Below are positions 8,201 through 62,867 of a stretch of 64,000 bases of DNA, one piece after another. The notes beneath the pieces were generated by a model. That model had not been told where the DNA came from. It made no database searches and saw nothing but the letters and a program-made list of their open reading frames with translations. The translations under genes were made by a program, and so were the position numbers. Within the stretch, counting starts at the first letter, position 1, and each line of letters opens with the position of its first letter. The DNA is taken from assembly GCF_001411555.2 (NCBI RefSeq), contig NC_049916.1, positions 62,001-126,000 of the forward strand, in the 5' to 3' direction. The DNA is from Juglans regia. Lineage: Eukaryota > Streptophyta > Magnoliopsida > Fagales > Juglandaceae.

Positions 8201-11200
8201 AGCAAGCTTCAGTTTCCGACATGATGGTATCTTCCAATGAAGTGGTGCTTTGGGATGTAGGCTTCTCAAGATCTGTCCAGGATTGGGAAGTAGAAGAGGT
8301 TACTGAATTTTTTAGACAGTTGTATTCAGTGGTGTTAAAAAGACAGAGCAGGGACCAACTTTGTTGGAATCAAACAGCCTCCAAGAAGTTTTCAGTTCGG
8401 TCTTATTATAAAGTGATACTTAATCAGCACCATATTGGCTTTCCTTGGAAGAGGATTTGGAAGGCTCATGTTCCGTCAAAGGTGGCTTTTTTTGTATGGA
8501 CAGCAGCAATAGGGAATATTCAGACTATTGACAACCTGAGGAAGCGTGGAATGATTGTTGTGGATTGGTGCTTTATGTGCAAGAAAGAAGCGGAATCAGC
8601 AAACCACCTTCTACTTCATTGTGAAATGGCTAAAGTGCTATGGGATGGTGTGTTTGGAAAGGTTGGGCTGTGCTGGGTTATGCCAGAAGCAGTGGTGGAT
8701 TTTCTAACATGCTGGACTAACTTTCAAATGCATACTTGTCCCCAAGTGGCAGCTGCCTGGAAAATGCTGCCTTTGTGTATTATGTGGTGTATTTGGTGGG
8801 AGAGAAATGAGCGGTGCTTTAATGATCGGGAACGCAATAGAGATGCATTTTGGAAGTTTTTTATAAGTACTCTAATTAGCTGGTTCTCTGCTATTGTACT
8901 GAAGGGAGGGGATGTAAACGCGTTCTTGTCTTCGTTTTTCTAAGTTCTAGAATGTATTAGGTGTTTCTTGTGTATACTCCCTGTGTACTCGGGCTATGCC
9001 TATTACATTGTTATTAATAAAGCTATTACTTATCAAAAAAAAAAAAATGTTCTTCCATGGGAATGTTCTTGTAGAATGTGTCATGAGGGACTTGTAGTAT
9101 GATTGTACAGTAAAATTCCCCTTCTTGGATTTTGACCTCATAATCTTATCTGCTCCTCCAATCACTCTACAAGTATAGACAAGGTTGAAGAAATCTGTAA
9201 ATGTGTCAATTTTCCAATCTTGGGCCTAAGGAAAGTGATATTCCACTAGAGAGATCCACGAGCTCTGCTATGGAAGCCTCCTTTCTTTGGGCGATGTCGT
9301 ATAGTGTTGGGTAGGCTTCTTTGAGGATTCATTCTCCACACCATAGGTTATTCCAAAATTTAATTCTGGAACCATCCGCAACTGCAAAATGTGTGTATCG
9401 ATGAAGATTGCTCTAGCCTCTTCTTATTTTTTTCCAAAGCCCCACCCCATGTGATTTGCTCATCTCATTCGAGCTCCATCCTCCTCACAGTCCACCATAT
9501 TTTAACTCTATAATCACCCTCCATAAACCCTCATTGCAGTATCTCCACAGCCATATACTCAATAAAGCCTTGTTGAAAACCAACAAATTCTGAATTCCTA
9601 GCCCGCCTTCTTGTATAGAGGTACAAACCGTAGCCCAATTCACCAAATGAATCTTGACTTCTTCGTCTGTTCCCCCCAAAGGAAGTCTCTTTGCAATTTC
9701 TCTATCCGGTGAGCCACTTTGCGTGGTATTGGAAATAAAGATAAGAAGTAAGTTGGCAGGTTGGATAGAGTACTTTTCAATGTAACTCTATCACCTTTGG
9801 ACAAATACACAGTTTATGCTCAATTTTTTCCAACACTCCATCCCAAATAGACAGCAATTTAAAGGATGCACCCGTTGGAAGACCGAGATACTTCATTGGC
9901 GAGGTGGAGATTTTGCATTCCAGCATATTGGCCAAGCTCAAAACACTTGCAACATTTCCCACTGGAACTAATTCTGACTTGGCGAGATTCACTTTCAAAC
10001 CCAAAGCCGCTTCAAAGCAAAGTATAAGAGCTCGCAAGGCTTGAATATGATTATGACTAGCCCCACAAAAGACAAGAGTATCATCTGCAAATAAGAGGTA
10101 AGTCATCTCAAGTGTGCCGATTCTTGCCTCCCCTACGACAAATCCAGATAAAAATCTACCTTCCACAAAACCTGCAATTATTTTACTAAAAGCTTCCATT
10201 ATGAAAACAAAGAGTAATGGAGATAGGGAATCACCTTGCCTCAAACCCCTTGAACTTCCAAAGAAACCATTGGGGTACCATTCACCAAGATAGAAAAATG
10301 TACGGTGGAGATGCAAAATTTGATCCAAGAGCACCATCTCGCTCCAAGTCCACACCTCTCGAGCATATGTAACAAAAAATTCCAGTTTACACAATTATAT
10401 GCCTTCTCCATATCAAGTTTGCATAATAACCTAGGCTCACCCGACTTGATGCGACTCTCCAAGCATTCATTGACAATGAGAACCGAATCAAGGATTTGTT
10501 GACCTCAAATGAATGTATTTTGGGGCTTGGATATGATCTTCTCCAATACTGTACTCAATCGGATAGCCAATACCTTCGAAAAGATTTTGTACATTCCACT
10601 CACCAAGCTAATAGGACGAAAGTCCTTAATCTCCACCACCCTAGGCTTCTTTGGGATAAGAGTAATGAAAGTAGTAGTAAGGTTTTTTTCAGTAATACCT
10701 CGTTCATGAAACTCTTGGAAGAAGCTCCTCCCAACATGCCTTAAAGAAGGCCATAGAGAACCCATCAGGCCTGAGCTTTGTCACCGGCCATACTTCTCAC
10801 CACCTTGCGAATCTCCACCTCCTCAAAAGGCCTCTCTAGCCAACTTGCTTCTTGCTGATCGATGTAGTTGTGCATAGTAGTTAGTAATATGATCCATGAT
10901 CTCAGATAGATTCAATGTAATCCTCCCATCTACCAATATGGACTCAATGATATTGTGTCTTCTATGTGAATCAGCCATGCGATGGAAGAACTTAGTGCAA
11001 TTATCCCATTCTTTTAGCCATAAAGCCCTCGATTTTTGTCTCCATGAGATCTCTTCCATTAAAGCCATCCTTTTAATATCCGAGGTGACTTGCTTTTTGC
11101 GAACCTTTTCTTCTTTTGAAAGCCCCCCCCTCCTCCTCCACGTCCTCCAAACCCTGTAATTCGTCGAGGAGGGACTTCTTTTGGTGTTCCACATTCCCAA

Positions 11201-17200: not shown

Positions 17201-20200
17201 AAAATCCATAAGTTTTCAGCATGAAAGGGTAAGCATTACTTTTTCTTATAAGTAGCCCCATTCTGTTACTTTCGATTCCTAGTTGGCTTTCTTGCTTCTT
17301 CTATCCTTCCAGTAGTGAGCTTATTTGTTTAGGGCTTTAAAATGCTATTGTTGCATATTTTAGTGGTCAAAATATCACGAATGGCCTTGTTTTTGTATCT
17401 ATCATTCTCAAATCCAAATTTATATCTTTAAAGGATTATTGAGCACATCATGCTTAATGTTTGGGGAAGAAAAATTTAATGGTAGAAAATTATGAAGATT
17501 ATGCTGGAAGAATTAGAATGAATTTTCATTTCTTATATTATTAGCTCACCATTTCCTGTGTTGATCTGTTATGATTTTTTTGTTATTGTGTCCATATTTT
17601 GATGGGAAAATAAAGCACCCCCATTGTTTCTCTCTCTTGTTCTCATTGATTTGTTTGAGTCTTAGGATAATGATTTGGTTTAGCACTGCACTCTTGATTT
17701 AATTGTTTTGTTTCCAGTTTCTTTAGCTTGTTTAGGTCTAATGTGTTGAGGAAAAAGTCACTTTTATTCTTGATGTAGAATCCCAAGAAGAAAAAGTTGG
17801 TTATGGAACAAAAGCACGAATTAATATTTGTTTTGTCATAATAGTTAATGATGACCAGCCTTAACAGGTGCTAGCGAGTCCCAAGGTTCATTCACTTGCA
17901 GTTTCCAAACTTTATTTGTTTTTCAACAGTAATGGTCTCAAAATAAACCCTTTCACATTTTGTGTGGAAATGTACTGTGTATATGACAACATAACATGCC
18001 GAAATCGAGAAGAGTTTCTGAATAATTATTCTGTGGAATTACTTTCCTTCCTCTTTGATCTTATTTTGGAAGGCACATGGCACATGCCAATGTGAGGCAG
18101 CCCTTTGATTTCTTGGTTAGGGTTCTAACCATCACTGCAGGTAGGGTAAAATGTAATTCCCCAGTTTTACTCTAAGATGGTAGTGAATGGGGATCCCACA
18201 TTGCATTGGCTGTGTTTGTTTTGGGGTTTAGAAATCATTGCCTGAAGCAAAGGATGTTACTGTCAAAGACTATGAAGCTGTTTCATGAGTTTTTAGTCAT
18301 CTTATTGTCATCCTATGTGCACTTTTGAGGGTTTTGACAAATGTGGCGAAATCAACTACGAATGTGGTGAGGTGACATTATATGTTTACAAGAAACGAAA
18401 TTGGAGTTTATCTCTTTAAGCATCATTAGGAGTTTATGGGCATGTAATTAGGTGGGTTGGCACTATCTAACAGATTTCTTTCTTTGACGGAATAATTCCT
18501 CCTATCCTTTCTCATTCATTAAGTAGTCAAAATATATTACACCCAATTAGCCATTCGAAATCTGACTTCCTATCCTGTAGGGATTCAAATCTTGGATAAG
18601 ATATGTTTCCCATACTTATCTACTTAATCTAAATATTCAACTTACAAATCATATAAATCCTATACACCTGTGCAAATATATCTATACCCGAAATACATAG
18701 ATAACATAGGAATTAATTCAAATAAATATAATCCACTAATACTATCTACCCTTGAAGGGATCATCGGGGGGGCATTCTAGTGATGTGGGATAAACGGGTG
18801 GTGGAAAAGGTGGAAGATCACATGGGAGATTTCACGGTGGCTTGCTTGTTTAAGAATGTTGGGGATGGCTTCTAGTGGGAGGTATCTACGGTCCTAATAT
18901 AGATCAAGCAAGACGGCTTTTATGGGACAAGTTGGCCAGTCCATGTAGCATCTGAGATATGCCTTGGTGTATGGGGTTTATTTTAATGTCACTCAATTCC
19001 CGAGTGAAAGATTGGGTGGTTCCAACTACAATTCAGCAATGGTAGACTTTTCTAAGTTCATATCTGACCAATATCTTAAACCCATTCCAAACCTCATTTA
19101 AAAGCATCTTCCCTGATTATGCTCAGACCACTTGCCCATCCTTATTGACTGTGGAGGAATATATGGAGGTCCAAGGTACTTCAAATTCGAGAACATGTGG
19201 TTGAAATCTGAGAGCTTTATTGACCGAGTTAAACAATGGTGGACTTTTTTTTTAATAAGTAAGAAGTTTTATTAGAAATGAATGTATAGGCGAGGCCCAT
19301 GTACACAGGAAGTATACAAAAGAAAACACCTAAGTACGTTCTAGGAAATGGAAAATAATGGTGGACTTCTTATAAATTCCAAGGAACTCCAAACTATATT
19401 CTGGCATGTAAATTGAAGGCATTGACAAAATATTTGAAGAGCTGGGATGAACTGCCGTTTGGTAATGTGGAAGGCCAAAAGAAAATAATGGAGGAACTTA
19501 AGGTTCTAGAGAACATATTGGAGGTAAGGGAAATGTCAAAAGTGGATAGGGCTCGCAAAACTCAAATGTCTGTAGAACTTGTACAGTTAACATGGCGGTG
19601 TCCTTAGTTTCGACTAGATTTCTCTCTGCTTTTACTCTTTTATTCTTTTGTTCATGTTTCCTAAAATTCCTGTTTTAAAAATAATAATTGCTCAATCTAT
19701 GTTTCTTAAAATTCTTGATGTTTCAATAAGATGCAAAATCGAATACTGACTGCTGTACAAGATATAATATAAAGGAAGTCTTAGTATTATTATTTGACTG
19801 TCCTTCATTATTCAGGCTGTTTTGTTTCAAAAGTTAGTATGATGATTTTAACAGTAACCACTGCTCTACTTATCAAAAAAAAAAAAAAAAAAACAGTAAC
19901 CCCTGCTCTACTGCAGGTCCTCTCTTCACTCAATGGTTTTGAAAATGTCAGTGCTAGACTCTTATCGAAAGCTGAGTAAGTTTTATTGTTTACAGTTGAT
20001 ATCCACTTTTATGCTATGAGAACCATTTATATTATTTGTTGGGGGGGGGGGGGGGGGTTTGTATTCATTTTTTAGGACTGCTGTTCATAGCTTTCCATTC
20101 TAATTTCTAGGTGATATTGTTGTGATCTGTATAAAATCTATACGGCGAACATGTAGGCTGTAATATCAATGTCAATATTTTTGCAGATATGTTTTATCAA

Positions 20201-44200: not shown

Positions 44201-47200
44201 CCTAGGTGACACACTTGGCATAACTAGAGTAAACAAAAAATCTCCTTGTATGGTTTCAATGCTGTCTTTGTCATGTGATACTCTTTTTTCTTTGGCAGAT
44301 ATGTTATCAGTAATGCTTGTAATAAGGACTTGTGTTATAAGCAAAAGGGAACTGATTTTGTCTTCCGTTTGCGCATTGGAGAACATGCACATCTTCACTG
44401 GACAGATGCTACCAGGTTGTTGCACATCTTCACACTCACTCGCATATCCACATTTCAAATGCATATTTTAAGGATATCCGGTCTGCATATTGGAAGCAAA
44501 TACAAATTTGTGTCTAGGAATGTCCAATGAAGTAATTCACTCGATATATGTTTTTATTATATTTTGAGTATTTTCCCAGCCATGTATCAAATCCTATAGT
44601 ATTTTGCCCCCCTTTTTAGGTAATACATAAAATGGGGCTATAATATTATGAACTTAGCTGATGTAGGCATGAAATAATTATTTTTAATTGGGACATTGAA
44701 CACACCCAATGGGTCTCCAACCCATGATCTCACACTCCGCCCTCTTGTTACAAGGGGAGGAGGTGTCACATTTTAGCTAAATCTCATGGGCAACATGGGT
44801 AAACATAATTAACTTGTAAATGAATCGTTCAGTGCAAAACAGAGGATGCACATCCTTTTCTGTGCCATGCACTTGTCCGAAGCGTGTGCCTTTTGCCTAA
44901 GCTAAGCCTTTTTGAAGGAGTGTTGTGAGGCTGTACATATGAGCCTTCTAAGCTGCATACTGTAAACGCACCCTGGAATGCTTTAATAGCTCTGAATAGA
45001 ACCCCCCTTATATTTCATGTAGTGTATTTCCCCTTGAAGAACCCTAATTAATCTGTGAGACTAGTGTATTTCCTTAAAGGGTAGTTTACCATCCATTCAT
45101 TCCACTAGTCTCTGAGAATGCAAAACGCAAATCCATTGCCATGGTTGGTTTTCCTGCTTTCATTCTATGGATAATGGAATGCATTACTATCTCTAGATTC
45201 TCTACCAATATAAATGGGGAGCAGGACAGATCGTGCGCGCTTCCCTTAAACATGATTCCCCTTCTTCACTGCACTAATCCTCCCCGAGGAGGATTGAACT
45301 CATAACTCTAACTCTAATATACGGGATCGTCGCTTCTCCTTGCTCTACGGTCAGTGATAGAGAGTCAATAGAGGTTGTGGGGAAACCCCCCCCCCCACAC
45401 ACCTTCCGTGGCTACTGCCACTCTTGGCTCCCGAGAGTCGTCCGCCCTTTACACAGGAAAATTAGGAGGTCCTCAGCAGAACAAAGAAATCTTCGTTTTT
45501 TTTACACCTCTAGTGAAATTATTTTCAAGATTGAGCACCAGAGCTGCTCATAACAATGCCAAAAAGAAGGTTCGGTAAACTCAGACTCTGATAGGATAGG
45601 ATTGTGCCCACCAGGCACTTTGGGTGTCATATTTTGGCCGAGTTTACCTCTTGCACTTTGGACAGCTGTCCATAGCATCATAAAGAGGGCCTCCCTTTCA
45701 AGGTAAAAAAATGGTACGATGCATAGGAGGTTGGTTTCTCAACGTGGTGTATAGCACGAAAACCCGTTCGATAAAGGTCGTTTACATGAACTAAGAGAAG
45801 AAAGGACCGATTCTCTTCTTTCTCTTTCTTAGGGGGGAAAGAGAAAGAGGATCTTATGGAGGGTGGGGGATTGGCCCAACACACGTGCATGAAACGTGAG
45901 CAAAAAATGATGAAATATGCCTTAAAAGCTCATGGACCCCTACCGATGTCAGTATGTACGGTCATGAATCCTCAAGCATCTTTGGACAACTATCGTCGTC
46001 TTGTCTTCTAGCATGTATACATCGGATTTGATCACTGGAAACAGAACGGTCTACTCTTCATAGCCGTACCCAAGCCTTTCGGCCTTCATGAATCCTGGAA
46101 TATGCAATTAAGCTTCTGGTATCACTTTAGGGCTTATGTGCAAGCTAGATATGGAGAAGGCATATGATCATGTTAATTGTGATTTTCTTCTATATCTACT
46201 GGGTAGGTGTGGATTTGGAGAAAAATGGAGGTCATGGATCAGATGGTGTATCTCCACGGCAAGATTCTTTGTGTTAATCAACGAAAGTCCAGAGGGTTTC
46301 TTCCCGAGCTCTCGTGGCTTGAGACAAGGGGATCCGTTGTCTCCATTACTTGTTGTTATTGTTATGGAGGCACTAAGCAGGATGATTTCAGCCTTAGTGA
46401 CTAATGGTTATATGTGTGGTTTTCAGATTGGATCGCCGAGTAGGGGTACCATTACCATCTCACATTTACTGTTTGCAGATGATACGCTTATTATGTGTGA
46501 TGCCGAGTTAGATCAATTGAGGGCTGTGAGGGCATTGTTGCTTTGTTTTGAAGCAGTGTCTGGTTTAAAAGTGAATTATGATAAATCTGAGTTGGTGCCT
46601 ATTGGAGAAGTTCAAAATTTGAGAGTATTGGCTGGTACACTGGGTTGTAAGATAGGGTCTCTCCCTATGAACTATTTGGGATTACCATTGGGTTCAGCCT
46701 CGAGGGCGATTTCTATTTGGGATACTGTGATTGAAAAAGTAGAGAGAAGATTGGCAGGTTGGAAGAGAATGTATTTGTCAAAAGGGGGCCGGATTACGCT
46801 TATTAAAAGTACGCTTTCTAATCTACCCACTTACTTCTTATCCTTATTCCCTATACCGGCTAGTGTAGCGGGACGTCTTGAGAAGATACAAAGAGACTTT
46901 CTGTGGGGGGGTCTAGGTGAAGAGTTCAAATTCCATTTAGTCAAGTGGGAAATGGTGTGCCGTCCTATATCCAATGGTGGTTTGGGTATTAGAAATTTGA
47001 GGATGTTCAATCGGGCACTACTTGGCAAATGGTTGTGGCGGTATATCAAGGAACTGGATGCCTTATAGAAGATTGTGATTGAGAACAAATACGGTAGTCT
47101 TGAGGGGGGTTGGTGTACTAGAGATGTTCGAGGGGCCGCTGGTAAGGGACTATGGAAACACATTAGAAGAGGATGGGTGGTTTTCCATCAACATACAAGA

Positions 47201-50200
47201 TTGCAATTGGGTACAGGTTCAAAGATCAGATTTTGGAAGGATGTTTGGTGTTCCGATAGTGCTCTACAAGATAGGTTTCCTACACTTTTCGTGATTGCAA
47301 ATGCTAAAGATGCCATGGTGGCGGAGGTAATGGAAGTGGTAGGTAGAAACATCCAATGGAATATCAATTTCTTTCGGGCAGCACATGACTGGGAGATGGG
47401 GAGTTTTGTAGATTTTTATAGTCTTTTATACTCTTGTCGCCCAAATACCCAGCATACAAATGATTTGTGGTGGAGTCCAACAAGGAAAGGGGTCTTCATT
47501 GTTAGCTCCTTTTACAAGGTACTTACACAAGTTCCTGACAGACAATTTCCATGGAGAAAGCTTTGGCGCAATAAGGCTCCTCTCAAAGCTTCTTTCTTTG
47601 TTTGGACAGCGGCTCTGGGGAAGATTCTTACTACGGATAATCTAAGAAAAAGAAACATAATTATAGCAGACTGGTGTTGTATGTGTAAAAAAGGGGGTGA
47701 ATCGGTGGATCATTTACTTTTACATTGCGAAGTAGCCAGGACTATTTGGGATGCGGTGTTTAACATAGTAGATCTAGCGTGGGTTATGCCAGAAACTGTG
47801 ATGGATGCTTTGGCCTGTTGGACCTCAATTGGAGGTGCGAGACAGATTAAAGCGGTTTGGAAGATGATTCCAAACTGTATTTTGTGGTGCTTATGGCAGG
47901 AGTGCAATGAGAGGATTTTTGAAGACAAAGAGAGATCAATAGCGGAGCTAAAAATGTTATTTTTTAGGACCCTATGTACTTGGGCTAATGCTGTGGTCTT
48001 TAATGGCATGGAATTTCATGAGTTTTTAGTTTCTAATGCTCCCACCTAATTAGGATGGGAGCATTAGAACATTTGTTTGTAATTGACACTTGTTTGGATG
48101 AATATATACTTATTTTACTTATCAAAAAAAAAAAAGCTTCTGGTATCACCAATAAATTCCGTATCTTCCTCAAGGACGCTTTGGAAGGATCAATGGTCAC
48201 TTGCGCAATTAAATAGTCTGAGTTAGTTTGGCATCCAAGGTAACCGAAGTAGCTGAAAGTTGGTGCAGTAGTTGGTTTGTATAATCCCCCCAAGCGGGAT
48301 TTAGGGCAGTAATGGTCCTATCTAATTTGTAAGCAATAAGCTTTGGGTTCATTGCAAGCCTGTAACTCTAGCAATCTGCCAAAAGCAATCGAAATATTCC
48401 TTAGTGAATTAGGTGAAAACTTGAACTACTCACTAGCTAGCCGGACTAGTAGGGGGGGCGGGGCCTATTTGGAGACCCTAAAGATAGTTTTCCTTTTTTT
48501 TGTATGGACAACTTAGAAAAGATCTTCAGCTTAGAATAAATATTAATGGAAACGCCAAATCCTTGTCATGGATTGGTGTTGCATATGCAAAAAGAGTGAT
48601 TCCATTGGCCACTAATGCTCCATTGTGAGATTGGCATGACCCTATAGAATGACTTCTTTGCTAGAGTGGGGTTAGCTTGGGTGATGCTGAGAATGGTTGT
48701 TGATTTTCTAGCAAATTGGAGAGGCCTTCATGTTAATCTACAAATTGCAACAATTTGGAAGATGGTCTCGATATGCTTATGGTGGTGTCATTGAAGGGAG
48801 ATGAACGAAAGAAGTTTTGAAGATCGCGAGCAGTCAATGGATGAGCTTAAAGCATTCTTTTTTAACACGTTACTCCATTGGTAGATTGTAATTGATTTTT
48901 TTTCTTTTTTTGATAAGTAAGAAAGACAATTTTATTAGAACAAATGAAATAGGTGAAGCCCATGTACACAGTATACAAAACAAAACACCTAATTACATTC
49001 TTAGGAAGTAGAAAGCAACAACAAAAAGTCAGAGATTGAAATTGATTTTAATGGCATGAGCTTTCATGACGTTCTTGCATCACTGGATTATCATTCATAG
49101 GTGATGCGCTTGTATATGTCCCATGCACTTGCACATTGCACATTATTTTCTTCAATAAAATTTGTTTACCAATAAAAATAGTTTGTGGGAGTAATTACCA
49201 GAGTTCTAGCCCAAAGCTACCATGCGAGGATTTCTTGCAGAATGAGAGAATCAAAGGAGGTGTTTGCTTAAAAGCATAACAAATTAAATATTTAAGCTGA
49301 AGATGTTAAACTTGGACGGTACTTATAGATTAAACTTGGGTAATTTCTACTAGACTGTGGACATTGGTACTCTGTTTCATCTGTTTCATCTACTGAATCA
49401 TGTCTATAGCCTCTTTGTTTGCTTACTTTTTTCCATTACTTGGAGTTCCCTCTTCCATTTCAATTTTTTTAAGTATTCTGCTTTTCCTCCTTTATTTACA
49501 TTTCAACATGCAGCAGGGAGTTACTGGTTTCCATTCGTTATAATGAACCTGGATGGCAATGGTCCGGCGGTTTCTTGCCAGATCATCTAGGTGATACTCA
49601 AGTCAAATTGCGGAATTACGTCTCCAATGCATTGAATATGATACGGGTTGAAGTGCAGAATGCTGATGTTTCCATTGGAGATGAGAAAATTGTTGGAAGC
49701 CTCCATGGAAGTTCTGGGACAAACTTGATTCTTTTATCAGATGATGACACAGGGTATATGCCATACAGAATTGATAATTTCTCAAAGGAGGTCAGTATTG
49801 TTGTTCATTTAGTTTATTTGCTACATATATCCCAAATTAAGGTTTCATGGTTGATTTTGTGTTTTTTTTTCTGTGCTAATGTTTCTAATTGGCCTCCTTG
49901 TTTTACAAAATATTTTTCTTCACTCATCTCTTTCTCTGTACCACCCCACATCTATGGGAGGGAAATAGGTGGGATCCCCCATTGCTTGGGAAGAAATGTT
50001 CTCAACATTTATAGGATTCCAAGTTAACATTTATTAGTCCTGTTGAAATATAAGCCTGGATGTGGCTTGTGCCTTACTTGGGTTGTTCTAAGTGTTATTA
50101 GAGTCAATCCTAACCAAGACTAGGGTGTCAAGCATGAGTGGTGAGATTGTAACACCCCCACATCAATGGAAAATTCTTGCATGGTAGTGTTTAGGTGTTG

Positions 50201-58600: not shown

Positions 58601-61600
58601 ATTCTGTTGTTTTGTGATAACCAAACTGCTTTACATATTGCATCTAACCCAGTTTTTAATGAATGAACCAAGCATTTTGAGGTTGATTGTTATTTGGTTC
58701 AAGACAATATTTCTAGACGATTCTAGAATTCTAGAGACCAGTTGGCCAACAAGTTTACAAAACCTTAATGTCAAAATCAGTTAAAAGTTTACTTGTTCCA
58801 AGTTGGGCTTATGTGATATATATATGCTGACTTTGTTAGAGTTAGGATATGTTAATGTTTGCTATTAAAGGTTAAAATGTCATGTTTCTCAATCAAATAG
58901 TACAGTGGAGACAATTTTTGAATATTTTTTCTTCTCATATGTTGAAGGATCTCCTATTAGATTTCTAGAGTTCTTTATGAATTTTCCTATTGGATATCCC
59001 TCTCCGATATTATGAACTGCCTCTTCACTCCTCCACTCATTAGTCAGTCGATGATGCAGTCTGAGGACCATATTGGGGGGGATACATTGGAAGACTTTGC
59101 ATCTGTTTATTTGGACTGCCACAGATTCTACTGCATAATTTTGCATCTGTTGGTAAGATGCCTTAGCTTTGCTTGAGTTGAACAATAGGTAGTATTTGCT
59201 TGAAGTTTTATCGAAATTTGTTTGTGTTTGTTTCAATGTAAAATGAGAAATGGGGAAGTGTATTCTGATGAAATTATGTTTTGGAAGAATTGTTGATTTT
59301 TTTATGTTTGGTTGGCACCTTGAAAATGATATGGAAAAGAATTTCTGATGTTTGGTTGCATTTGTGATAGTATGACTTCTAATTTTAATTCATCATCTAC
59401 TCTCGCAAAATAGAAAATTAATCTTTTAAAGATTATTGGCAGTAATAAAATTTTCACTTGAAAATTCGCTGTAAATGCTGAGTGAAGGAACGGGGAGAGA
59501 GAGAGAGATAGAGAATATAAGGGTGAGAAACATCAAATCTAATAATCTTAGCAAATTTTGTTCATACACCCATTGTGCTATGGGTTTCTTCGATTTAAGA
59601 CATTCTGCTAGTTTTTTTAACAATAACCACATGCAGTATGAGTTTTATTGTAAATAAAATCCTCTGCCATGCGGTATGAGTTCATATATCACCATTAAAA
59701 TACATGCACCAATCACAGACCGCCATGTTTCAATTTAAATTTTTTCTTAAAATAATTTATTTATTTTTTTAAATGAGAAATATAATTTTATAATAAAAAA
59801 TTATTATATATTTTTAAAAACATCAACAAATTTTCTGAATGCCACTTGTAGTGGCTACAAGCACCACGGGTGGCCGAACTTTGGCATCCATGGGGTGGCC
59901 AGATTCCTGCCACCTCACGAGTGGCCAAAACAAAAGTGGGAGTTAGTTGTTTTCTACAGTTTTAAGTTTTTAAATATATAAAGATCAGTTTTTATTAGAA
60001 AAATATATATTTCTTAATTTTCAAAAAAATATTTAGTAAAATAATTTTAAGAAGAAATCGACACATGGTGATCTATAATTTGGCCACGTCTATCTTTTAC
60101 CTGACAGGCCGAGTGAAGCAAGGGGGGTGGAATGACTTACAGTCCTGGAGAGGGGCACGTCATTTTCCACCCCCGACACATGGTTTTCCCATTGACCAAC
60201 TACTCCTTTTTCGTTGACCTCTCTTTTCTACCCTTTCTGAACAAGCCAAGTGATAAAAATGTTTTCCCAAAAAATATTTTCATCTGAAACAAGTATGTAT
60301 GAATTTTCTTCTAGATGCAAGTATTTAGTGGTTTGTAGGTTTTGGGGAAAATGGGTCTGAAAAAGTAAATATGGGTTTGTATGCTTGAGACCTTAATCAT
60401 CTACTAACTAGTTATATGACAACTTTATTTACGAAGTTTTCAGCTCTATTGGATATCCTAGACTGGTGAAATGGTTGTAGATTTTAAATTTTCTATTAGA
60501 ATTCAGGGAGAGTGATCTGGAACTTCCAAGTAGAGATGAGTTAAACTTGTCATCACCAGTCACATCATTTCACCATCTGATGTGGAGATGACATCAAGAC
60601 CAATATGACTTATGACTCTATGGGTACCAGTAACAAGCAACAGAGCTGCAATTTAAGCAGTTTGGGAAAGGAAGCATGTAATTTTACCAATAAACTGAGT
60701 ATGAAAATTCCATTACCAGATTGGATTTATAATGGAACGAAGAAATTATTGTTCTATGCATGTCGGCAGGAGAATTCTTTTTTCTGGGGATTAATAACTA
60801 ACTAACTTTACACTGGCTAATTTAGCTGCTATTGGAGTTATAAGACTGCAGGTGAAGGGACATTCAGAATTCATTTACAAGTGGACTGCGATTCCTTGGG
60901 CTTCCCGTTTGCTCTGTGCCTGTCTGGAATGAAGGTCACGTCATGCTCTTCTCATTCATCTGTAATTATTTTATGTGCAGGTGTTTGGTTCTGCTGGTGT
61001 TATTGGTAATCCCATGGGATTTGCAAGGACGCTTGGGCTTGGGATCAAGGATTTCTTATCAATGCCAGCCAGGAGTATTTGGCAGGTATATATGACTTAT
61101 CAAAAAAAAAGTATTTGGCAGGTATATAGTTTCTAAGATAGTTGTAGGGAGATCATCAAACAGATAATGATGCCAACTGTGAAGTTGAGGAAGATAAACA
61201 CAAGGTCAAATGTACCTACCAAATATAATAACTCCTAGCTAGTGACTAGGATATTGTAAATGATAATGTAGATATCTCATAATTAACGTTCTTATCCTGT
61301 CAAAAGTTTATGTAAATCTGAGTACATAACCGAAGGATAAAATAACAGAACTTGATCTCCAATTTTTCTTGTGGCGACTATAGTTTATGCATTTTCTAGG
61401 CTATAGTGTTTACTTTATTAAATGATAAGTTCCTTTCTCTACTATTTTTCTACAAGCAAGCAAGCCTTGAAGAACTTCATCAGTTTCGGCATAGGAATAG
61501 ATTACAAGCAAGACAATAAAAGATCAATGAAAAATGAAAAACAGAAATTACCTTGTTCAGTAATATACATATCTTCTATTGGCAGAGCCCTACTGGACTT

Positions 61601-62867
61601 ATTACTGGCATGGCACAAGGTAGCACTAGTCTTCTGAGTAACACGGTGTATGCTATAAGTGATGCTGCCACTCAGTTCAGTAAAGCTGCGCAAAAGGTAT
61701 CACTTCTTTCAATAAACATTTGAATGGTACCAGATCAGTTTTCTTTTATATATTTAGTGGGTTTCTTTACATGTAGGGTATTGTTGCATTTACATTTGAT
61801 GACCAAGCTGTTTCAACAATGGAAAAGCAGCAGATGAATGCTGCATCACATAGTAAAGGTGTGATAAATGAAGTCTTGGAGGTATGTTTATCACGCTTTA
61901 GTGGTTCCCATTATGCAAGTATTTTGGGCACATCCCCCGATTTTCTCCATTTTTCATATAGTGGATCTATTGGGCACTGTCTGAAACCAATTTGCAATGG
62001 GAAGTCAGTTATATTTTCGTTATTTTTTTCTACTGTAAAAGTAATATTTTATTAAATCAAACATTGGAAAACCTCATAATATATACGACATGCACATAGT
62101 GTATATGCAATTCAATTTCCTGGAATATTTCCTGGTATTAGGCTAATGAGCAAGTCACAAGGGCCCACATCACATCTGCACTCGGAACTATTCCAGGAAA
62201 TTGAATTGCATGTACAGTCTATGTGCATGGCGTATATATAAATTGATATTGGGGTAATGAGCAAGTTACAAGGGCCCACATCACATCTGCACTCGAAACT
62301 ATTCCAGGAAATTGAAATGCATATACACTCTATGTGCACGTCGTATATATTATGAGGTTTTCCAATGTTTGATTATTAGATCTTTGTATGACTTGAGCAA
62401 ATACCAGCCAGCATATGCTTCTTTGAAAAGAAACTAAACGCCCTATATTATCTGTCTTTTGTTGATTTATTGGATGCTTGGAGTATCTCAGAATTTTGTG
62501 AATGGTAGTGAAATGGTTTAAGTGAAGATGTTTTGAAGTGAAAAGAATTTAATATTATTTTTGTTTTGAAGTTTGTAAAAGTTGTATTGATTTTTGTGTT
62601 TTGTTTTGAAATTTGTAAAAGTTGTATTGATTTTTGTATTTGAATAATGATTAGGTAATGATTAGTTAAAAAATTTGAAATTGAAAAGTGTTTTGTGTTT
62701 GGGTGTTGTTTGGGAATGAAATTATGAGAAATTTGAGAATTCTCATGTTTGCCAAACATCCCCTTATATTGAGCTATGTTTACACCATTAATTTCAGGGA
62801 CTCACTGGCCTTCTCCAGTCACCGATTAAAGGAGCTGAGAAACACGGCCTTCCTGGTGTTCTATCAG
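656..62867 (+). CDS. VPS13: VPS13-family bridge-like lipid transfer protein, 38 exons, both gene ends outside the window
   Basis: VPS13 proteins form a long hydrophobic groove that moves bulk phospholipid between membranes at contact sites. Plant SHRUBBY, a member, was found as a SHORT-ROOT partner. Exons read by eye: 656-724, 828-907, 2069-2218, 14078-14141, 14653-14754, 14933-15130, 15268-15395, 16435-16585, 16760-16855, 17127-17228, 19917-19975, 20187-20283, 20816-20974, 21060-21170, 36131-36411, 36641-38223, 38331-39535, 40220-40348, 40439-40594, 41761-42333, 42476-42547, 42648-43064, 43195-43378, 43464-44205, 44299-44415, 49517-49790, 50534-50647, 50731-50814, 53881-53931, 54015-54194, 54268-54521, 54599-54973, 55077-55140, 55763-55909, 60981-61085, 61586-61696, 61777-61881, 62798-62867. 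All introns are GT-AG and phases agree throughout with no stop, so the gene looks functional. Start and stop lie outside. The SHR-BD type and absence of a PH domain in the visible part favour SHRUBBY/VPS13S over the PH-containing paralogues; that subtype is inference. Confidence 0.93.
940..978. repeat. (TTA)n microsatellite
   Basis: About 13 tandem TTA units lie in intron 2, shortly after the exon 2 donor. Confidence 0.9.
979..2068. other. Intron 2 remainder with LINE tail remnant
   Basis: About 1095-1170 resembles a LINE 3' UTR (GGCCTACGCCTATTATTCTC, then an ATCAATAAA-like end and ACTTATAG). A perfect 20-base direct repeat (1171-1190 and 1205-1224) follows. From 1225 to 2068 I recognise nothing beyond AT-rich intron. 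Confidence 0.5.
2709..3310. mobile_element. PIF/Harbinger (Tourist)-type MITE, 602 bp
   Basis: The terminal inverted repeats are GAGCATTGGCAATGG plus CTAGCCATTGCCAA on both ends, differing at one of about 30 positions. The 3-bp TTA duplications are at 2706-2708 and 3311-3313. The interior is very AT-rich and non-coding. TWA target duplications and short G-starting TIRs are characteristic of the PIF/Harbinger superfamily. Confidence 0.85.
3338..3427 (-). mobile_element. LINE 3'-tail micro-insertion with 13-bp TSD
   Basis: The insert at 3351-3414 (64 bases) starts with a T run. It continues as the reverse complement of a LINE end (on the minus strand GGCTATGCCTATTCTTTATG, then AATAAAATTT). AAGGGCGAGGTCA occurs at 3338-3350 and again at 3415-3427 as the target duplication. 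Confidence 0.85.
3624..4164 (-). pseudogene. LINE ORF2 C-terminus and tail (continuation of the outer LINE)
   Basis: The minus strand reads [20 protein letters not shown] just below 4164. It ends with [20 protein letters not shown] to the stop at 3715, followed by a 3' UTR and T-rich tail at 3624-3647. The join to the part beyond 9047 is exact once the 7-bp duplication is removed (PWKN to IWKT). Confidence 0.8.
4165..5327 (+). pseudogene. LINE ORF1, 5'-truncated
   Basis: ORF1 encodes the RNA-binding gag-like protein of plant L1 elements. The N-terminal DUF4283 and zinc-knuckle part is missing. What remains is a low-complexity acidic linker and the conserved tail [20 protein letters not shown], then [13 protein letters not shown]. 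The frame is open for about 388 codons to the stop at 5325-5327. The only upstream ATG (4158) belongs to the target duplication rather than to the LINE, so it is not a genuine start. It overlaps ORF2 by about 26 bases. Confidence 0.75.
5302..8943 (+). pseudogene. LINE ORF2: endonuclease, reverse transcriptase, zinc-binding RVT domain; one nonsense codon
   Basis: The ORF2 polyprotein drives target-primed reverse transcription. [10 protein letters not shown] at 5332 opens an APE-type endonuclease, with [23 protein letters not shown] and GSDHFPIIL in order. RT motifs are DKAPGPDGF (about 6650), [50 protein letters not shown] (about 7355-7390) and YLGLPLGAS. The C-terminal zf-RVT segment reads [20 protein letters not shown] and HLLLHCE. 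The whole 1213-codon frame is broken only by TGA at 7072-7074, where relatives have Trp (TGG), so this is a recent copy. The product would act in a nuclear RNP. Confidence 0.9.
9035..9046 (+). repeat. A tail of the inner LINE
   Basis: Twelve A residues directly follow TATC. They mark the 3' end of the retroposed copy. Confidence 0.9.
9047..12611 (-). pseudogene. LINE ORF1 end and ORF2 (endonuclease, RT), broken
   Basis: Minus-strand pieces in order are: ORF1 tail around 12164-12352; endonuclease 11498-11994 ([32 protein letters not shown]); linker 10823-11342; RT palm 9777-10765 ([77 protein letters not shown]); C-terminal part 9485-9679. Stops and frame changes separate them. The last piece upstream of 9047 ([19 protein letters not shown]) continues at 4164 and below. 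Confidence 0.8.
12356..12565. mobile_element. GAGATG-type MITE, 210 bp, TAA TSD
   Basis: It starts GGAGAGGTTTGGATTCA and ends with the inverted TGAATCCAAATATCTCC. TAA is present at 12353-12355 and 12566-12568. It interrupts the ORF1 tail of the outer antisense LINE. Related copies lie near 21385-21698 and from 63304. Confidence 0.8.
12622..13140. other. Intron sequence, nothing recognised
   Basis: No domain, inverted ends or A tail were found. Short open frames on both strands overlap one another and have no recognisable motif. Confidence 0.4.
13150..13331 (+). mobile_element. SINE-like retroposon
   Basis: The unit contains GCCGAGGGCCTGTGCACTCC and ends CCGGACACCCGGTGCCAATA plus an A run (to 13331). 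The same 3' end, ACCCGGTGCCAATA plus A run, recurs at 21343-21376, so this is a dispersed A-tailed family. The 5' border and target duplication were not found. Confidence 0.45.
13350..13870 (+). mobile_element. Decayed sense LINE 3' fragment
   Basis: [17 protein letters not shown] near 13360-13420 and [18 protein letters not shown] near 13515-13570 match the zf-RVT and C-terminal stretches of LINE ORF2. A LINE-like 3' UTR (TTGTACACTCCATGTGCACT) follows near 13785. The part between is deleted. Confidence 0.6.
14078..17228 (+). CDS. VPS13: VPS13 exons 4-10 (N-terminal half)
   Basis: Seven exons (14078-14141, 14653-14754, 14933-15130, 15268-15395, 16435-16585, 16760-16855, 17127-17228) encode about 280 residues. 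Landmarks are [20 protein letters not shown] directly continuing GQRL of exon 3, then [31 protein letters not shown], and [17 protein letters not shown] followed by the beta-rich [12 protein letters not shown] segment. The exon 5 acceptor at 14651-14652 was chosen over the AG at 14664-14665, because only the former restores frame and the SIDVDII reading. The exon 7/8 junction splits a Met codon (AT, G). The open frame running past 15395 is not used, since its continuation lacks VPS13 character and exon 8 joins exactly. Confidence 0.92.
14142..14652. other. Intron 4, nothing recognised
   Basis: Ordinary AT-rich intron with a run of ten A near 14437. No transposon ends seen. Confidence 0.6.
15396..16434. 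other. Intron 7 with a 90-bp direct repeat
   Basis: Two similar copies (15733-15824 and 16234-16324) share GCTTGTTTAACAGACATGCC and the bases around it, and lie about 500 bases apart. The rest is plain intron. Confidence 0.6.
16643..16678. repeat. Perfect 14-bp hairpin in intron 8
   Basis: ATAATGTGCACTTT at 16643-16656 and its exact reverse complement at 16665-16678 enclose an 8-base loop. Confidence 0.85.
17229..18329. other. First part of intron 10, nothing recognised
   Basis: AT-rich intron. The open frame at 17868-18095 has no domain and no matching splice phases. Confidence 0.5.
18462..18749. mobile_element. 272-bp insertion with 8-bp TSD, class unknown
   Basis: ACTATCTA occurs at 18462-18469 and 18742-18749. 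Removing 18470-18749 restores the LINE reading VGWHYL followed by PLKGSSGG in frame. The ends (ACAGATTTC and CCACTAAT) are not clear inverted repeats and there is no A tail. The 8-bp duplication would suit hAT, but the termini do not confirm it. Confidence 0.65.
19235..19368 (-). mobile_element. LINE 3'-tail micro-insertion, 110 bp, with TSD
   Basis: AATGGTGGACTT is present at 19235-19246 and 19357-19368. The insert at 19247-19356 begins with a T run, then AATAAGTAAG. It reads on the minus strand as a LINE 3' UTR (GTATACTTCCTGTGTACATG, GGCCTCGCCTATACATTC). Removing it restores the host LINE reading KQWWTSYKF. Confidence 0.9.
19850..19912 (+). mobile_element. LINE 3'-tip micro-insertion at the exon 11 acceptor
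   Basis: The insert at 19871-19891 is TATC followed by 17 A, the very end of the LINE seen at 9031-9046. The flanking 21-base copies (19850-19870 and 19892-19912) differ at a single base. The right copy runs directly into GCAG, the acceptor of exon 11. Confidence 0.85.
19917..21170 (+). CDS. VPS13: VPS13 exons 11-14
   Basis: Four exons (19917-19975, 20187-20283, 20816-20974, 21060-21170) encode about 142 residues. Landmarks are [20 protein letters not shown], the strand-rich [20 protein letters not shown], then [12 protein letters not shown] and [20 protein letters not shown]. Phases 2-1, 0-0 and 0-0 agree. The acceptor of exon 11 lies only 26 bases after a run of 17 A that belongs to a retroposed micro-insertion (19871-19891). 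The 21-base duplicated target ends directly before the GCAG of this acceptor. Confidence 0.92.
20041..20057. repeat. G17 homopolymer
   Basis: Seventeen consecutive G in intron 11, between exons 11 and 12. Confidence 0.9.
20284..20815. other. Intron 12 with an A-tailed dispersed repeat
   Basis: About 20530-20711 contains GCCACATTTGGGCTATACTC and AAGCAATGCGGGATACC and ends in an A run. It looks like a retroposed repeat, but no target duplication was found. Confidence 0.35.
21340..21376 (+). mobile_element. SINE 3' end fragment
   Basis: CCCTTTTACCCGGTGCCAAT plus a 16-17 base A run repeats the 3' end of the unit at 13150-13331. It is heavily 5'-truncated. Confidence 0.45.
21385..21698 (-). mobile_element. 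GAGATG-type MITE
   Basis: On the minus strand it starts GGCTCCATTTGGATGTTGAG. It shares GAATAGTAGTGAGTTGAGATGG and GTGGATCCCACATGTAAAGA segments with the copy from 63304. A TTA/TAA lies at the border 21699-21702. The other end is diffuse. Confidence 0.6.
21703..22794. other. Intron with GC-rich patch
   Basis: About 22085-22250 and 22710-22735 are strikingly GC-rich (GGCGCCCCCCTTGGGGGGGG; GGATGCGGGGGCCCCCC) in an AT-rich intron. Between them lie CAAACCCC-rich sequence and a GAGAGA stretch with a G run near 22557. No credible coding frame was found. Confidence 0.45.
22795..23353. mobile_element. PIF/Harbinger-type MITE, 559 bp
   Basis: It begins GAGCACTCTCATTGGAATAG and ends with the inverted CTAATCCAATGAGAATGCTC. 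TAA duplications lie at 22792-22794 and 23354-23356. The interior is AT-rich with no frame. Confidence 0.85.
23564..25467 (-). mobile_element. Antisense LINE with two internal deletions, 13-bp TSD
   Basis: GACAAACAAAGAT is at 23564-23576 and 25455-25467. The element 23577-25454 starts (minus strand) with a 5' leader and an ORF1 N-terminus ([35 protein letters not shown]). It then jumps straight into ORF2 ([11 protein letters not shown] near 25090), continues through linker and RT ([30 protein letters not shown]), jumps again near 23985 and ends with [12 protein letters not shown] to the stop at 23653 and a T-rich tail. The retained 5' leader and the TSD show that the gaps are not simple 5' truncation. 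Confidence 0.8.
25468..26957. other. Unrecognised intron sequence
   Basis: No motif is recognised here. A faint minus-strand coding feel near 26200-26480 ([36 protein letters not shown]) is broken by stops. Confidence 0.3.
26958..27105 (+). repeat. Extra copy of the gypsy pol 3' end
   Basis: This stretch (GATGAGGCTCAGCTGACAGA, then LDYLEKV and AGATAAAGATTTG) matches 34130-34300 closely but stands directly upstream of gag. It implies a second, partly deleted copy of the element or a tandem arrangement. Confidence 0.8.
27107..27358 (+). pseudogene. Ty3/gypsy gag core
   Basis: [36 protein letters not shown] and [13 protein letters not shown] are typical of the retrotransposon gag domain, which forms the particle shell. 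The frame runs into an insertion at 27364 and resumes after 30615 in the same frame. A stop is already present just before the insertion. Confidence 0.8.
28005..28395. repeat. Minisatellite, about 30-bp units in 92-bp higher order
   Basis: Units resemble CACTATTATCACCCGTGGTT plus GGGCCGTAT. The first part repeats as roughly 92-base blocks (CCATGTTTAACCCC to GGGCCATATA). On the minus strand one frame reads a decapeptide-like repeat ([10 protein letters not shown]), probably a by-product of the unit length. Confidence 0.8.
28440..30600. other. Interior of the 3.25-kb insertion, no gene recognised
   Basis: AT-rich to 29400, then a GAGAGAGA stretch (about 29525-29580) and G-rich sequence with GTGGTGG runs to about 30010. 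Open frames on both strands lack motifs. Confidence 0.45.
30748..31136 (+). pseudogene. Ty3/gypsy gag zinc knuckle and protease region
   Basis: A CCHC knuckle ([16 protein letters not shown]2-C-X4-H-X4-C) is followed by a retropepsin-like stretch containing [16 protein letters not shown]. The usual catalytic D-S/T-G is altered (SDSC), so the protease is probably dead. Confidence 0.7.
31179..32860 (+). pseudogene. Ty3/gypsy reverse transcriptase and RNase H, broken
   Basis: RT begins with [20 protein letters not shown] (about 31717-31782) and, after a stop, [19 protein letters not shown]. The catalytic YLDD is at 32079-32090. The connection (TFLGFVVF) and RNase H ([26 protein letters not shown]) follow. 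At least seven stops and a frameshift near 32160 are visible. Confidence 0.85.
32940..34252 (+). pseudogene. Ty3/gypsy integrase, broken
   Basis: A partial HHCC zinc region (about 33050-33185) is followed by the catalytic core at 33235-33680, with the acidic residues in [17 protein letters not shown] and [13 protein letters not shown]-terminal part ([10 protein letters not shown]) reaches the stop at 34249-34251. The core frame is long and open, ending in TAG at 33676. Confidence 0.85.
34259..34806 (+). repeat. Probable 3' LTR of the gypsy element
   Basis: After the pol stop comes sequence beginning near TGAGGAGC and ending near CCCAGCA. It has a TATA-like GCTATTTAAAGCCC near 34630 and T-rich downstream sequence. 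No matching 5' LTR is present to fix the borders. Confidence 0.35.
34807..36130. other. End of intron 14, nothing recognised
   Basis: AT-rich sequence with no domain, inverted ends or A tail seen. It ends with the exon 15 acceptor. Confidence 0.4.
36131..39535 (+). CDS. VPS13: VPS13 exons 15-17 (large central exons)
   Basis: Exon 15 (36131-36411), exon 16 (36641-38223, 1583 bases) and exon 17 (38331-39535, 1205 bases) encode about 1020 residues of the central lipid-groove region, rich in alternating beta strands. Recognisable stretches are [77 protein letters not shown] and [18 protein letters not shown]. Exon 15 ends with CA and exon 16 supplies G (Gln). Exon 16 ends with one G and exon 17 supplies AT (Asp). 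Exon 17 ends in phase 0 at AGG before gtatac. Its open frame continues to 39655, but the VPS13 reading resumes exactly at exon 18. The methionines inside exon 16 are not gene starts. Confidence 0.94.
39536..40219. other. Intron 17, nothing recognised
   Basis: The exon 17 frame stays open to 39655 but is intronic. AAATAAAAA repeats lie near 39826-39851. Confidence 0.6.
40220..44415 (+). CDS. VPS13: VPS13 exons 18-25 (VAB/SHR-BD region)
   Basis: Eight exons: 40220-40348 ([14 protein letters not shown]), 40439-40594 ([12 protein letters not shown]), 41761-42333, 42476-42547, 42648-43064, 43195-43378, 43464-44205 and 44299-44415. They encode about 800 residues covering the VPS13 adaptor-binding (VAB) region, annotated in plants as SHR-BD. 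Characteristic text is [52 protein letters not shown] and [17 protein letters not shown], ending in HLHWTDATR. In yeast VPS13 this module binds Pro-X-Pro adaptor motifs (family knowledge). All phases agree. Exon 24 has a long Ser/Asn-rich loop around 43700-43920. Confidence 0.94.
40951..41723 (+). mobile_element. Short LINE with 5' end and tail but no middle, 13-bp TSD
   Basis: GTTTTCATTATTT is at 40951-40963 and 41711-41723. The 747-bp element has a 5' leader and an ORF1 N-terminus of the DUF4283 type ([40 protein letters not shown]). It then passes straight into a LINE 3' UTR (GTATACTCCCGTTGTACTTG, ATCAATAAAATT) and A run. All of ORF2 is missing. It sits in intron 19, just before exon 20. 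Confidence 0.85.
44416..44674. other. Start of intron 25, nothing recognised
   Basis: Plain intron following the exon 25 donor. Confidence 0.5.
44675..44805 (-). mobile_element. tRNA-derived SINE-like segment
   Basis: On the minus strand GCCCATGAGATTTAGCT resembles an RNA polymerase III box A, and GGGTTGGAGACCC resembles box B about 60 bases on. Tail and target duplications were not identified. Confidence 0.4.
44850..46109. other. Organelle-like (probable NUMT) segment, left part
   Basis: Base composition here is more balanced than in the surrounding introns. Its style (for example GGTACGATGCATAGGAGG, GGTCGTTTACATGAACTAAG, GAGAAAGAGGATCTTATGG) looks like plant mitochondrial intergenic DNA. 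No gene is recognised. It continues at 48150 after the LINE. Confidence 0.4.
46110..48149 (+). mobile_element. Young 5'-truncated sense LINE, 16-bp TSD
   Basis: AAGCTTCTGGTATCAC is at 46110-46125 and 48134-48149. The element is 46126-48133, ending ACTTATC plus an A run. It is truncated inside the RT domain. The perfect duplication and single nonsense codon mark it as recent. Confidence 0.95.
46136..48049 (+). pseudogene. LINE ORF2 C-terminal two thirds (RT palm to zf-RVT), one nonsense codon
   Basis: The single frame begins at [13 protein letters not shown] and contains [26 protein letters not shown] (catalytic ADD), [15 protein letters not shown] and [10 protein letters not shown]. The C-terminal zf-RVT part has [25 protein letters not shown] and HLLLHCEVA. 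The frame is interrupted only by TAG at 47066-47068, where relatives have Trp, and ends at 48047-48049. The N-terminal endonuclease is absent. Confidence 0.9.
48150..48494. other. Organelle-like segment, right part
   Basis: It continues the balanced-composition sequence left of the LINE (AATCCCCCCAAGCGGGATTT, TGTAACTCTAGCAATCTGCC). It ends near a G-rich AGGGGGGGCGGGGCC at about 48450. Confidence 0.4.
48495..49185 (+). mobile_element. Old sense LINE 3' fragment
   Basis: Decayed zf-RVT text is recognisable across frames, followed by a tail frame with [12 protein letters not shown] near 49060-49100 and a LINE-like 3' UTR ending near 49185. A micro-insertion (48900-49033) interrupts it. Confidence 0.65.
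48884..49049 (-). mobile_element. LINE 3'-tail micro-insertion, 134 bp, 16-bp TSD
   Basis: GATTGTAATTGATTTT at 48884-48899 and GATTGAAATTGATTTT at 49034-49049 (one mismatch) flank an insert. The insert begins with a T run and TGATAAGTAAG and is a reverse-complement LINE 3' UTR. Removing it rejoins the older LINE end (IVIDF to NGMSFHD). Confidence 0.85.
49186..49516. other. End of intron 25, nothing recognised
   Basis: T-rich intron leading to the CAGCAG acceptor of exon 26. The second AG (49515-49516) fits the reading frame. Confidence 0.6.
49517..55909 (+). CDS. VPS13: VPS13 exons 26-34 (end of VAB region into C-terminal domain)
   Basis: Nine exons: 49517-49790, 50534-50647, 50731-50814, 53881-53931, 54015-54194, 54268-54521, 54599-54973, 55077-55140 and 55763-55909. 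They encode about 514 residues. Landmarks are [97 protein letters not shown] and [15 protein letters not shown]. The last pieces belong to the conserved VPS13 C-terminal domain. Exon 29 is only 51 bases and is confirmed by its phase-0 borders and by the [19 protein letters not shown] continuity. Intron 28 carries a split LINE, and intron 33 has no recognised element. Confidence 0.93.
49791..50533. repeat. Intron 26 with a diverged tandem duplication
   Basis: About 49968-50075 and 50195-50310 align loosely (GGGATCCCCCATTGCTTGGG versus GGGATTCTAAATTGCCTGG; ATATAAGCCTGGATGTGGCT versus GTATAAGCTCAGATATGGTT). It looks like an old dispersed repeat. Confidence 0.45.
50815..51700. other. First part of intron 28, nothing recognised
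   Basis: AT-rich intron without motifs. Confidence 0.5.
51705..51795 (+). mobile_element. Sense LINE 3'-tail fragment
   Basis: TTAGGTGTATCTCTTGTATA, then CATCCTGTGTGCTGGAGTAC and ATCATTAATAAAATATTTG, match the LINE 3' UTR at 8957-9030. Target copies are not clear. Confidence 0.6.
52651..52685. repeat. C23-A12 homopolymer tract
   Basis: Twenty-three C then about twelve A. Length is likely variable and may be affected by sequencing. Confidence 0.85.
52839..53643. mobile_element. Mutator-like MITE, 787 bp, 9-bp TSD
   Basis: CATCATATC (52839-52847) and CATCATACC (53635-53643) flank 52848-53634. The ends are related as imperfect inverted repeats (GTTTTAAAAACCATTCC; inverse of GGAACAGATTTCAAAAC). 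GTTCCGGT-type motifs recur inside. Removing it restores the antisense LINE reading across the break. A 9-bp duplication is typical of Mutator-like elements. Confidence 0.7.
55141..55762. other. Intron 33, nothing recognised
   Basis: Ordinary intron between exons 33 and 34. No repeat ends seen. Confidence 0.55.
55910..56378. other. Start of intron 34, nothing recognised
   Basis: T-rich intron ahead of the Ty1/copia LTR. Confidence 0.5.
56379..56564 (+). repeat. Ty1/copia-type 5' LTR and primer binding site
   Basis: The sequence runs from TGTTAGAG to TTATTAGCA (56552), with a TATATAAAC box near 56467. It is followed by TGGCATCGGAGC, close to the TGGTATCAGAGC that pairs with initiator tRNA-Met in copia elements. 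Confidence 0.6.
56847..58330 (-). mobile_element. Antisense LINE nested in the copia remnant
   Basis: A T run (56847-56862) marks the 3' end. Minus-strand frames at 57953-58216, 57293-57943 and 56934-57215 read [56 protein letters not shown] and [14 protein letters not shown]. It is 5'-truncated just upstream of YLG. TAAAAGTTGCACCCAACG occurs twice at the 5' junction (about 58272 and 58312). Confidence 0.85.
58400..58860 (+). pseudogene. Ty1/copia RNase H end and 3' LTR start
   Basis: Across shifted frames one reads [43 protein letters not shown] and then LTR-like TTGTTAGAGT. These are the usual copia RNase H landmarks. Multiple stops and frameshifts are present. Confidence 0.65.
58861..59711. 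other. Intron 34 middle, nothing recognised
   Basis: AT-rich with a GAGAGAGAGAGA stretch near 59492-59510. No element ends seen. Confidence 0.45.
59712..60096. mobile_element. Probable MITE or foldback element
   Basis: The left CACAGACCGCCATGTTTCAA plus TTCTTAAAATAATTTA is roughly inverse to the right TAAAATAATTTTAAGAAG plus CACATGGTGATCT. The interior has a GGTGGCC-rich core. Borders and duplication are uncertain. Confidence 0.45.
60097..60980. other. End of intron 34, nothing recognised
   Basis: Plain intron to the exon 35 acceptor (GTGCAG). Confidence 0.5.
60981..62867 (+). CDS. VPS13: VPS13 exons 35-38 (C-terminal ATG2-like region, incomplete)
   Basis: Exons 60981-61085 ([20 protein letters not shown]), 61586-61696 ([20 protein letters not shown]), 61777-61881 ([19 protein letters not shown]) and 62798-62867 ([20 protein letters not shown]). 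These are the small-residue-rich amphipathic segments of the VPS13/ATG2 C-terminus, thought to contact membranes. Exon 38 ends with one base of a codon at a gtaatc donor, so at least one more exon lies beyond the window. Exon 35 has two tandem 5' splice sites: gtatat at 61086 and an identical one at 61122, created by a 19-bp target duplication. Use of the second would add 12 residues in frame ([12 protein letters not shown]). Confidence 0.92.
61074..61128 (+). mobile_element. LINE 3'-tip micro-insertion that duplicates the exon 35 splice donor
   Basis: AGTATTTGGCAGGTATATA is present at 61074-61092 and again at 61110-61128. Between them lies TGACTTATCAAAAAAAA (61093-61109), the LINE terminus plus A tail. 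The duplicated target contains the last 12 exon bases and the GTATATA donor. Confidence 0.9.
61129..61585. other. Intron 35, nothing recognised
   Basis: AT-rich intron between the duplicated donor and exon 36. Confidence 0.6.
62054..62386. mobile_element. Foldback element with about 75-bp inverted ends
   Basis: The left AATCAAACATTGGAAAACCT to about 62135 is mirrored by the right arm ending AGGTTTTCCAATGTTTGATT (62355-62374). ATTA flanks both sides. Internally a roughly 95-bp segment (AAGGGCCCACATCACATCTG) occurs twice in direct orientation (about 62145-62240 and 62255-62350). Confidence 0.75.
62465..62765. mobile_element. Probable MITE with a 40-bp tandem repeat
   Basis: The right end, read inversely (GGGGATGTTTGGCAAACATG), resembles the left GGATGCTTGGAGTATCTCAG. 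Inside, GAAGTTTGTAAAAGTTGTAT and its neighbours occur twice in tandem (about 62562-62640). Confidence 0.5.

Follow-up and report, generated by a model that had tools for sequence, protein, structure and literature searches.

Insertions of 5'-truncated L1-type elements are made by target-primed reverse transcription and carry an A tail, a target duplication and the 3' end of the element. For canine merle, a SINE has been reported in PMEL at an intron-exon border, where a 15-bp target duplication takes in the original splice acceptor and A-tail length decides which splice site is chosen (PMC7349775). Intron gain through a duplicated AGGT, arising by transposon insertion or by tandem duplication, has also been described (PMC3443670), and tandem alternative donors such as GYNGYN are reported as a known class (PMC1779574).

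Here we analyse a site in a VPS13 gene of Juglans regia, within a window of 64,000 nucleotides (the whole stretch of DNA analysed, C16:62001-126000). The site shares with merle PMEL, as described, a retroposon at an intron-exon border and a target duplication carrying the splice site; whereas merle involves a full SINE in reverse orientation, an acceptor and a phenotype, the VPS13 site has about nine LINE bases in sense orientation, a donor, two identical donors and no known phenotype. As in the reported AGGT intron gain, a duplicated proto-splice AGGT flanks the insert and the interval starts with GT and ends with AG, but here an existing donor was doubled, and the 36 nt would extend the exon and make no intron. 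The candidate donor pair resembles the described GYNGYN class in offering close in-frame donors and small protein insertions, and differs from it in spacing (36 nt rather than a few) and in its apparent making by a retroposon. Compared with 5'-truncated L1 insertions, the A tail, the duplication, the 3' end of the element and the bases common to the 5' junction are alike, whereas almost no element bases were kept, and such tips are frequent in the genome. Neither a doubled donor of LINE-tip origin nor minimal LINE insertions were found described in the open-licence literature, which was covered mostly as titles and the openings of abstracts. A target duplication with a splice acceptor is known from merle; what is new here is a donor doubled by a minimal LINE tip.

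The gene had been taken for VPS13 in an earlier sequence-only reading, and length, domains and whole-length similarity agree with this. The closest protein is that of Carya illinoinensis (P0001, 3470 aa; 98% identity over the C-terminal 411 residues searched), which contains VPS13_N, VAB and VPS13_C domains, and 2600 of 2814 residues (92.4%) were identical when the exons of the window with their flanking DNA were aligned to it. The length given for SHRUBBY is 3464 aa (PMC13157975). The gene is of the VPS13S/SHRUBBY type as classed by its length, domains and similarity to P0001, rather than by alignment to SHRUBBY itself. In the window it looks intact over the aligned exons, since the spliced alignment to P0001 contains no stop or frameshift in them. 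Upstream of the exon at the site there are 29 aligned introns and six gaps separating aligned blocks, necessarily introns as well, and more coding exons lie upstream of the window; the number of this exon is therefore higher than the 35 originally assigned to it. The gene model comprises 32 introns and donors, 33 acceptors and 65 modelled junctions, introns at block gaps being unmodelled, and the alignment permitted no intron shorter than 60 nt. By eye, LTR-retrotransposon-like frames (protease, reverse transcriptase, integrase-like) were seen in a VPS13 intron at 29804-34251, and the intron 61882-62797 holds a near-palindromic stretch with internal repeats at 62060-62370, probably a short inverted-repeat transposon.

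The site itself consists of an exact 19-bp direct repeat, AGTATTTGGCAGGTATATA, whose two copies are identical at 19 of 19 positions and enclose 17 bases (Table 1). No match to the repeat occurred in 100 shuffles with up to two mismatches allowed. The 3' A tail of the insert directly adjoins the second copy, as in L1-type insertions, and the A run reaches nine when the base common to the repeat is counted. The earlier description of this arrangement was right to the base: the duplication spans the last 12 exon bases and the donor with the first seven intron bases, and the donors at 61085/61086 and 61121/61122, 36 nt apart, are equal from -3 to +7. Translation bore out that the bases between them are in frame, free of stops and code for 12 residues, and the spliced alignment places the intron at the doubled donor in phase 0. 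With a spacing of 36 nt, the term NAGNAG-like is a loose one for these donors.

Table 1 Features of the doubled donor site and of LINE-related sequences in the window.
Feature	Position	Strand	Remarks
VPS13 exon ending at upstream donor	60981..61085	+	spliced alignment to P0001
Target duplication, first copy	61074..61092	+	12 exon bases + 7 intron bases
Upstream 5' splice site GT, CAG|GTATATA	61086..61087	+	score 7.59
Candidate optional in-frame exon extension, 12 residues	61086..61121	+	starts GT, ends AG
Putative LINE tip, TGACTTATC + A8	61093..61109	+	17 nt
Target duplication, second copy	61110..61128	+	
Downstream 5' splice site GT	61122..61123	+	same as upstream donor from -3 to +7
Next VPS13 exon	61586..61696	+	spliced alignment to P0001
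Long LINE copy	4140..9047	+	ends TTACTTATC-A13
5'-truncated LINE	46110..48149	+	ends TTACTTATC-A12; 16-bp target duplication
Second minimal LINE tip, TATC + A tail	19850..19912	+	21-bp duplication, 1 mismatch; 3' splice site (19916) 4 nt away
Probable third minimal LINE tip, CTTAT + A7	601..654	+	21-bp duplication, 2 mismatches

The insert resembles the 3' ends of LINEs in the same window. Its tip agrees with the LINE end at 7 of 7 positions over ACTTATC and, as TGACTTATC against TTACTTATC, at 8 of 9, one base being different. With up to two mismatches allowed, TGACTTATCAAAAAAA has six matches in the window, the VPS13 site among them, where 0.26 would be expected. The matches at 9026 (TTACTTATC-A13) and 48115 are the ends of the long LINE copy and of the 5'-truncated LINE in Table 1, a pair on the minus strand belongs to short truncated LINEs with duplications of 12 and 16 bp, and the sixth, at 19866, is another minimal tip. 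The long LINE copy lies in a roughly 12-kb VPS13 intron and has two reading frames, with ORF2 broken by one in-frame stop; no target duplication was detected around it. A 9-mer within one mismatch of TTACTTATC precedes 5 of the 38 tracts of at least eight A in the window (site included), compared with 17 of 127,982 places at which no AAAA follows. A scan for an A run followed by a copy of the sequence upstream gave 11 hits on both strands of the window and none in six Markov-shuffled windows, searched on one strand each. In addition, an old LINE tail was seen at 1140-1224, its A-rich end AGAAAAATAATAATGATAATA exactly duplicated around ACCGATCCAAAAA.

The same tail was then counted across the 571 Mb assembly (21,811 contigs), with reversed patterns as controls. 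TTACTTATC-A8 occurred 1183 times (8 in the control), TGACTTATC-A7 57 times (2) and VVACTTATC-A8 176 times (18), while VTACTTATC-A8 occurred 281 times (8), a pattern count from which the share of minimal tips does not follow. Loci with a non-consensus dinucleotide before ACTTATC were inspected in contig order, and hence form no random sample. A target duplication reaching the tip was found at 20 of the first 30 of the 57 TGACTTATC loci and at 25 of the first 30 of the 176 VVACTTATC loci, so that 45 of 60 non-consensus tails were scored as minimal tips and 15 were not (L002-L031 and L037-L066). If the sample is typical, about 185 minimal insertions would be present in these ten dinucleotide contexts. 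By eye, one locus (L016) has LINE-like sequence upstream of TGACTTATC.

Removal of three duplicates left 42 distinct minimal tips, whose target duplications range from 8 to 23 bp with a median of 17 and are exact in 28 cases; the median tail is A10.5. Between duplication and A run stood ACTTATC, CTTATC or GACTTATC in 33 of the 42, the number of bases there ranging from 1 to 12; the sharp endpoint of the tip is partly selection, because the search pattern requires ACTTATC. Where fewer than seven element bases were present, the missing ones were supplied by the target itself, which fits microhomology at the 5' junction. The L1-type endonuclease prefers, without requiring, the T-rich site TT|AAAA. 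The target at the VPS13 site is GG|AGT, which is not the typical T|AA and was counted against the LINE account; of the 42 sister events, 12 have T|AA and 19 have |AA, and one sister locus (L017) has GG|AA. In sequence, the VPS13 insertion fits a common class of minimal LINE insertions, though its nick site is atypical.

The LINE-tip origin first suggested by the sequence-only reading is backed by the LINE 3' ends of the window, by the genome counts against their controls and by the 45 of 60 sister insertions, and we regard this origin as very probable. Repair of a double-strand break that made a tandem duplication and took up filler copied from nearby, with no retroposon involved, could draw on a second occurrence of ATATGACTTAT at 60603-60613. 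However, when 2000 random 16-mers of the window were drawn, 76 had a match of 11 bases no more than 2 kb away, and such repair leaves unexplained both the A run and the recurrence of tip, tail and duplication at 45 of 60 sister loci. We rejected it as highly improbable, the local 11-base match being unremarkable. An artefact of assembly or sequencing might be suspected, since errors are common in A runs and the site comes from a single assembly, but the insert has LINE-specific bases, the same structure recurs in 45 of 60 sister tails and the whole feature, at 55 bp, lies well inside one read; an error of this kind is next to negligible as an explanation.

Plant donors tend to sit where a GC-richer exon steps to an AU-rich intron, and GC was 0.476 in the exon, 0.25 in the 36-nt interval and 0.315 in the intron. 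Both donors score 7.59, the median of the gene's 32 donors being 7.52. From this mid-range score, and from the identity of their cores, we infer that both are competent. The protein across the junction was compared in 187 plant homologs, representatives of 90% clusters that could hide a variant, of which 145 fit the scoring pattern; the remaining 42 were mostly fragments or sequences with no visible motif. The spacing was 17 residues in 144 of the 145, and the one exception (P0148), where it is 12, seems to reflect another way of annotating this junction. The 12 extra residues were found in none of the 187. This conserved spacing argues for constraint at the junction. At the same junction, a few of the 42 unscored homologs (P0129, P0131 and P0175, for example) are annotated as skipping the next exon or exons. 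A low-confidence structure model of a relative (P0128), built from 26 sequences and with a mean pLDDT of 56.5, has helices at 84-106 and 110-144; the site falls between residues 108 and 109, in the short turn that joins them, where local confidence is about 52. As modelled, the fold may tolerate the form with 12 more residues.

Since the interval resembles the intron in its AU-richness and the spacing of the protein is conserved, we expect the upstream donor (61085) to be preferred by most transcripts, an expectation held with moderate confidence. If instead the origin were the same but 61121 were mainly used, the form with 12 more residues would be the usual protein in the species. The identity of the two donors from -3 to +7 would allow this, and in animals the intron-proximal of two identical competing donors is often favoured, which was counted for use of 61121; the 17-residue spacing in 144 of 145 homologs, the lack of the extra residues in all 187 and the intron-like AU-richness of the interval speak against it, leaving predominant use of 61121 unlikely but of some weight. 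Another possibility is that the duplication made a new intron of 36 nt (GT at 61086, AG at 61121), spliced out to restore the original; the mRNA left after its removal would not differ from that made with the upstream donor. The interval does start with GT and end with AG, and a duplicated AGGT is a reported path to introns (PMC3443670). The shortest of the 32 modelled introns of the gene is, however, 73 nt, with 60 nt the minimum allowed in the alignment. Plant introns have a usual minimum length above 36 nt. We rejected the new intron, whose probability we put close to nil, as too short.

On the account that we prefer, a target-primed insertion would have been made by an L1-type LINE of the plant, or by the machinery of such an element working on a LINE transcript, and copying would have ended after the A tail and just the last 7-9 element bases. 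Staggered cuts 18-19 bp apart would have straddled the exon-intron border, and gap filling would have doubled the last 12 exon and the first 7 intron bases, and hence the whole core of the 5' splice site. The two donors that resulted would be identical and separated by 36 nt that are open and in frame. Most transcripts would be cut at 61085 and a minor fraction, carrying 12 extra residues, at 61121. With either donor keeping the frame, the insertion would have been tolerated; because of this, and with both copies of the splice site whole, the gene need not suffer from it. Neither an empty-site allele nor a paralogue covering the site was found in the assembly, where, besides the locus, two weak intronic matches of 73% occurred off the site. 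Taken as a whole, this account of LINE-tip origin, preference for the upstream donor and minor use of the downstream one appears likely to us.

All three minimal tips of the window are in sense orientation and no more than 5 nt from a VPS13 junction. The one at 601..654, from which the final C of the tip is absent, lies 1 nt from the intron end at 655. For random placement, the probability of falling within 5 nt of any of the 65 modelled junctions is 0.031 per event, which the unmodelled junctions at block gaps would lift a little. Because the first tip was chosen for its position, the surprise rests on two events, and the joint chance for the two tips that were not the starting point is about 0.001. 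Among the 42 genome-wide tip targets, by sequence score alone and without gene annotation, none had a donor score of at least 7 (2.77 expected) and one had an acceptor score of at least 9 (1.37 expected). Aiming of LINE tips at splice sites was rejected, since these 42 tips show no excess of splice-like targets, and we take the clustering of the three tips near VPS13 junctions to be chance or a local effect. A correspondence between the nick motif and the branch point was rejected as well, TTAA being present between -45 and -18 in 7 of 33 acceptors (0.21) compared with 0.19 in the background. As a separate observation, the LINE tip carries CTTAT, a branch-point-like motif, and CTTA is found between -45 and -18 in 12 of 33 acceptors (the site at 655 included) compared with an intron background of 0.10.

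The VPS13 site offers a clean natural case of a retroposon doubling a splice donor with the gene unbroken and, as the two sites are identical from -3 to +7, a convenient setting in which to test how a donor is chosen; in the same gene, two further minimal tips come within 5 nt of a splice junction. Many apparent small indels and tandem duplications in the genome are LINE tips with target duplications, and repeat annotation would probably miss such minimal tips. It is conceivable, though we hold it only tentatively, that minimal tips are a frequent, overlooked LINE product in the tree's lineage and a steady source of exact micro-duplications, and that VPS13 has through its doubled donor a used, species-specific isoform with 12 more residues. 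The genome-wide abundance of minimal LINE tips may matter more than the VPS13 case, and is most worth following up.
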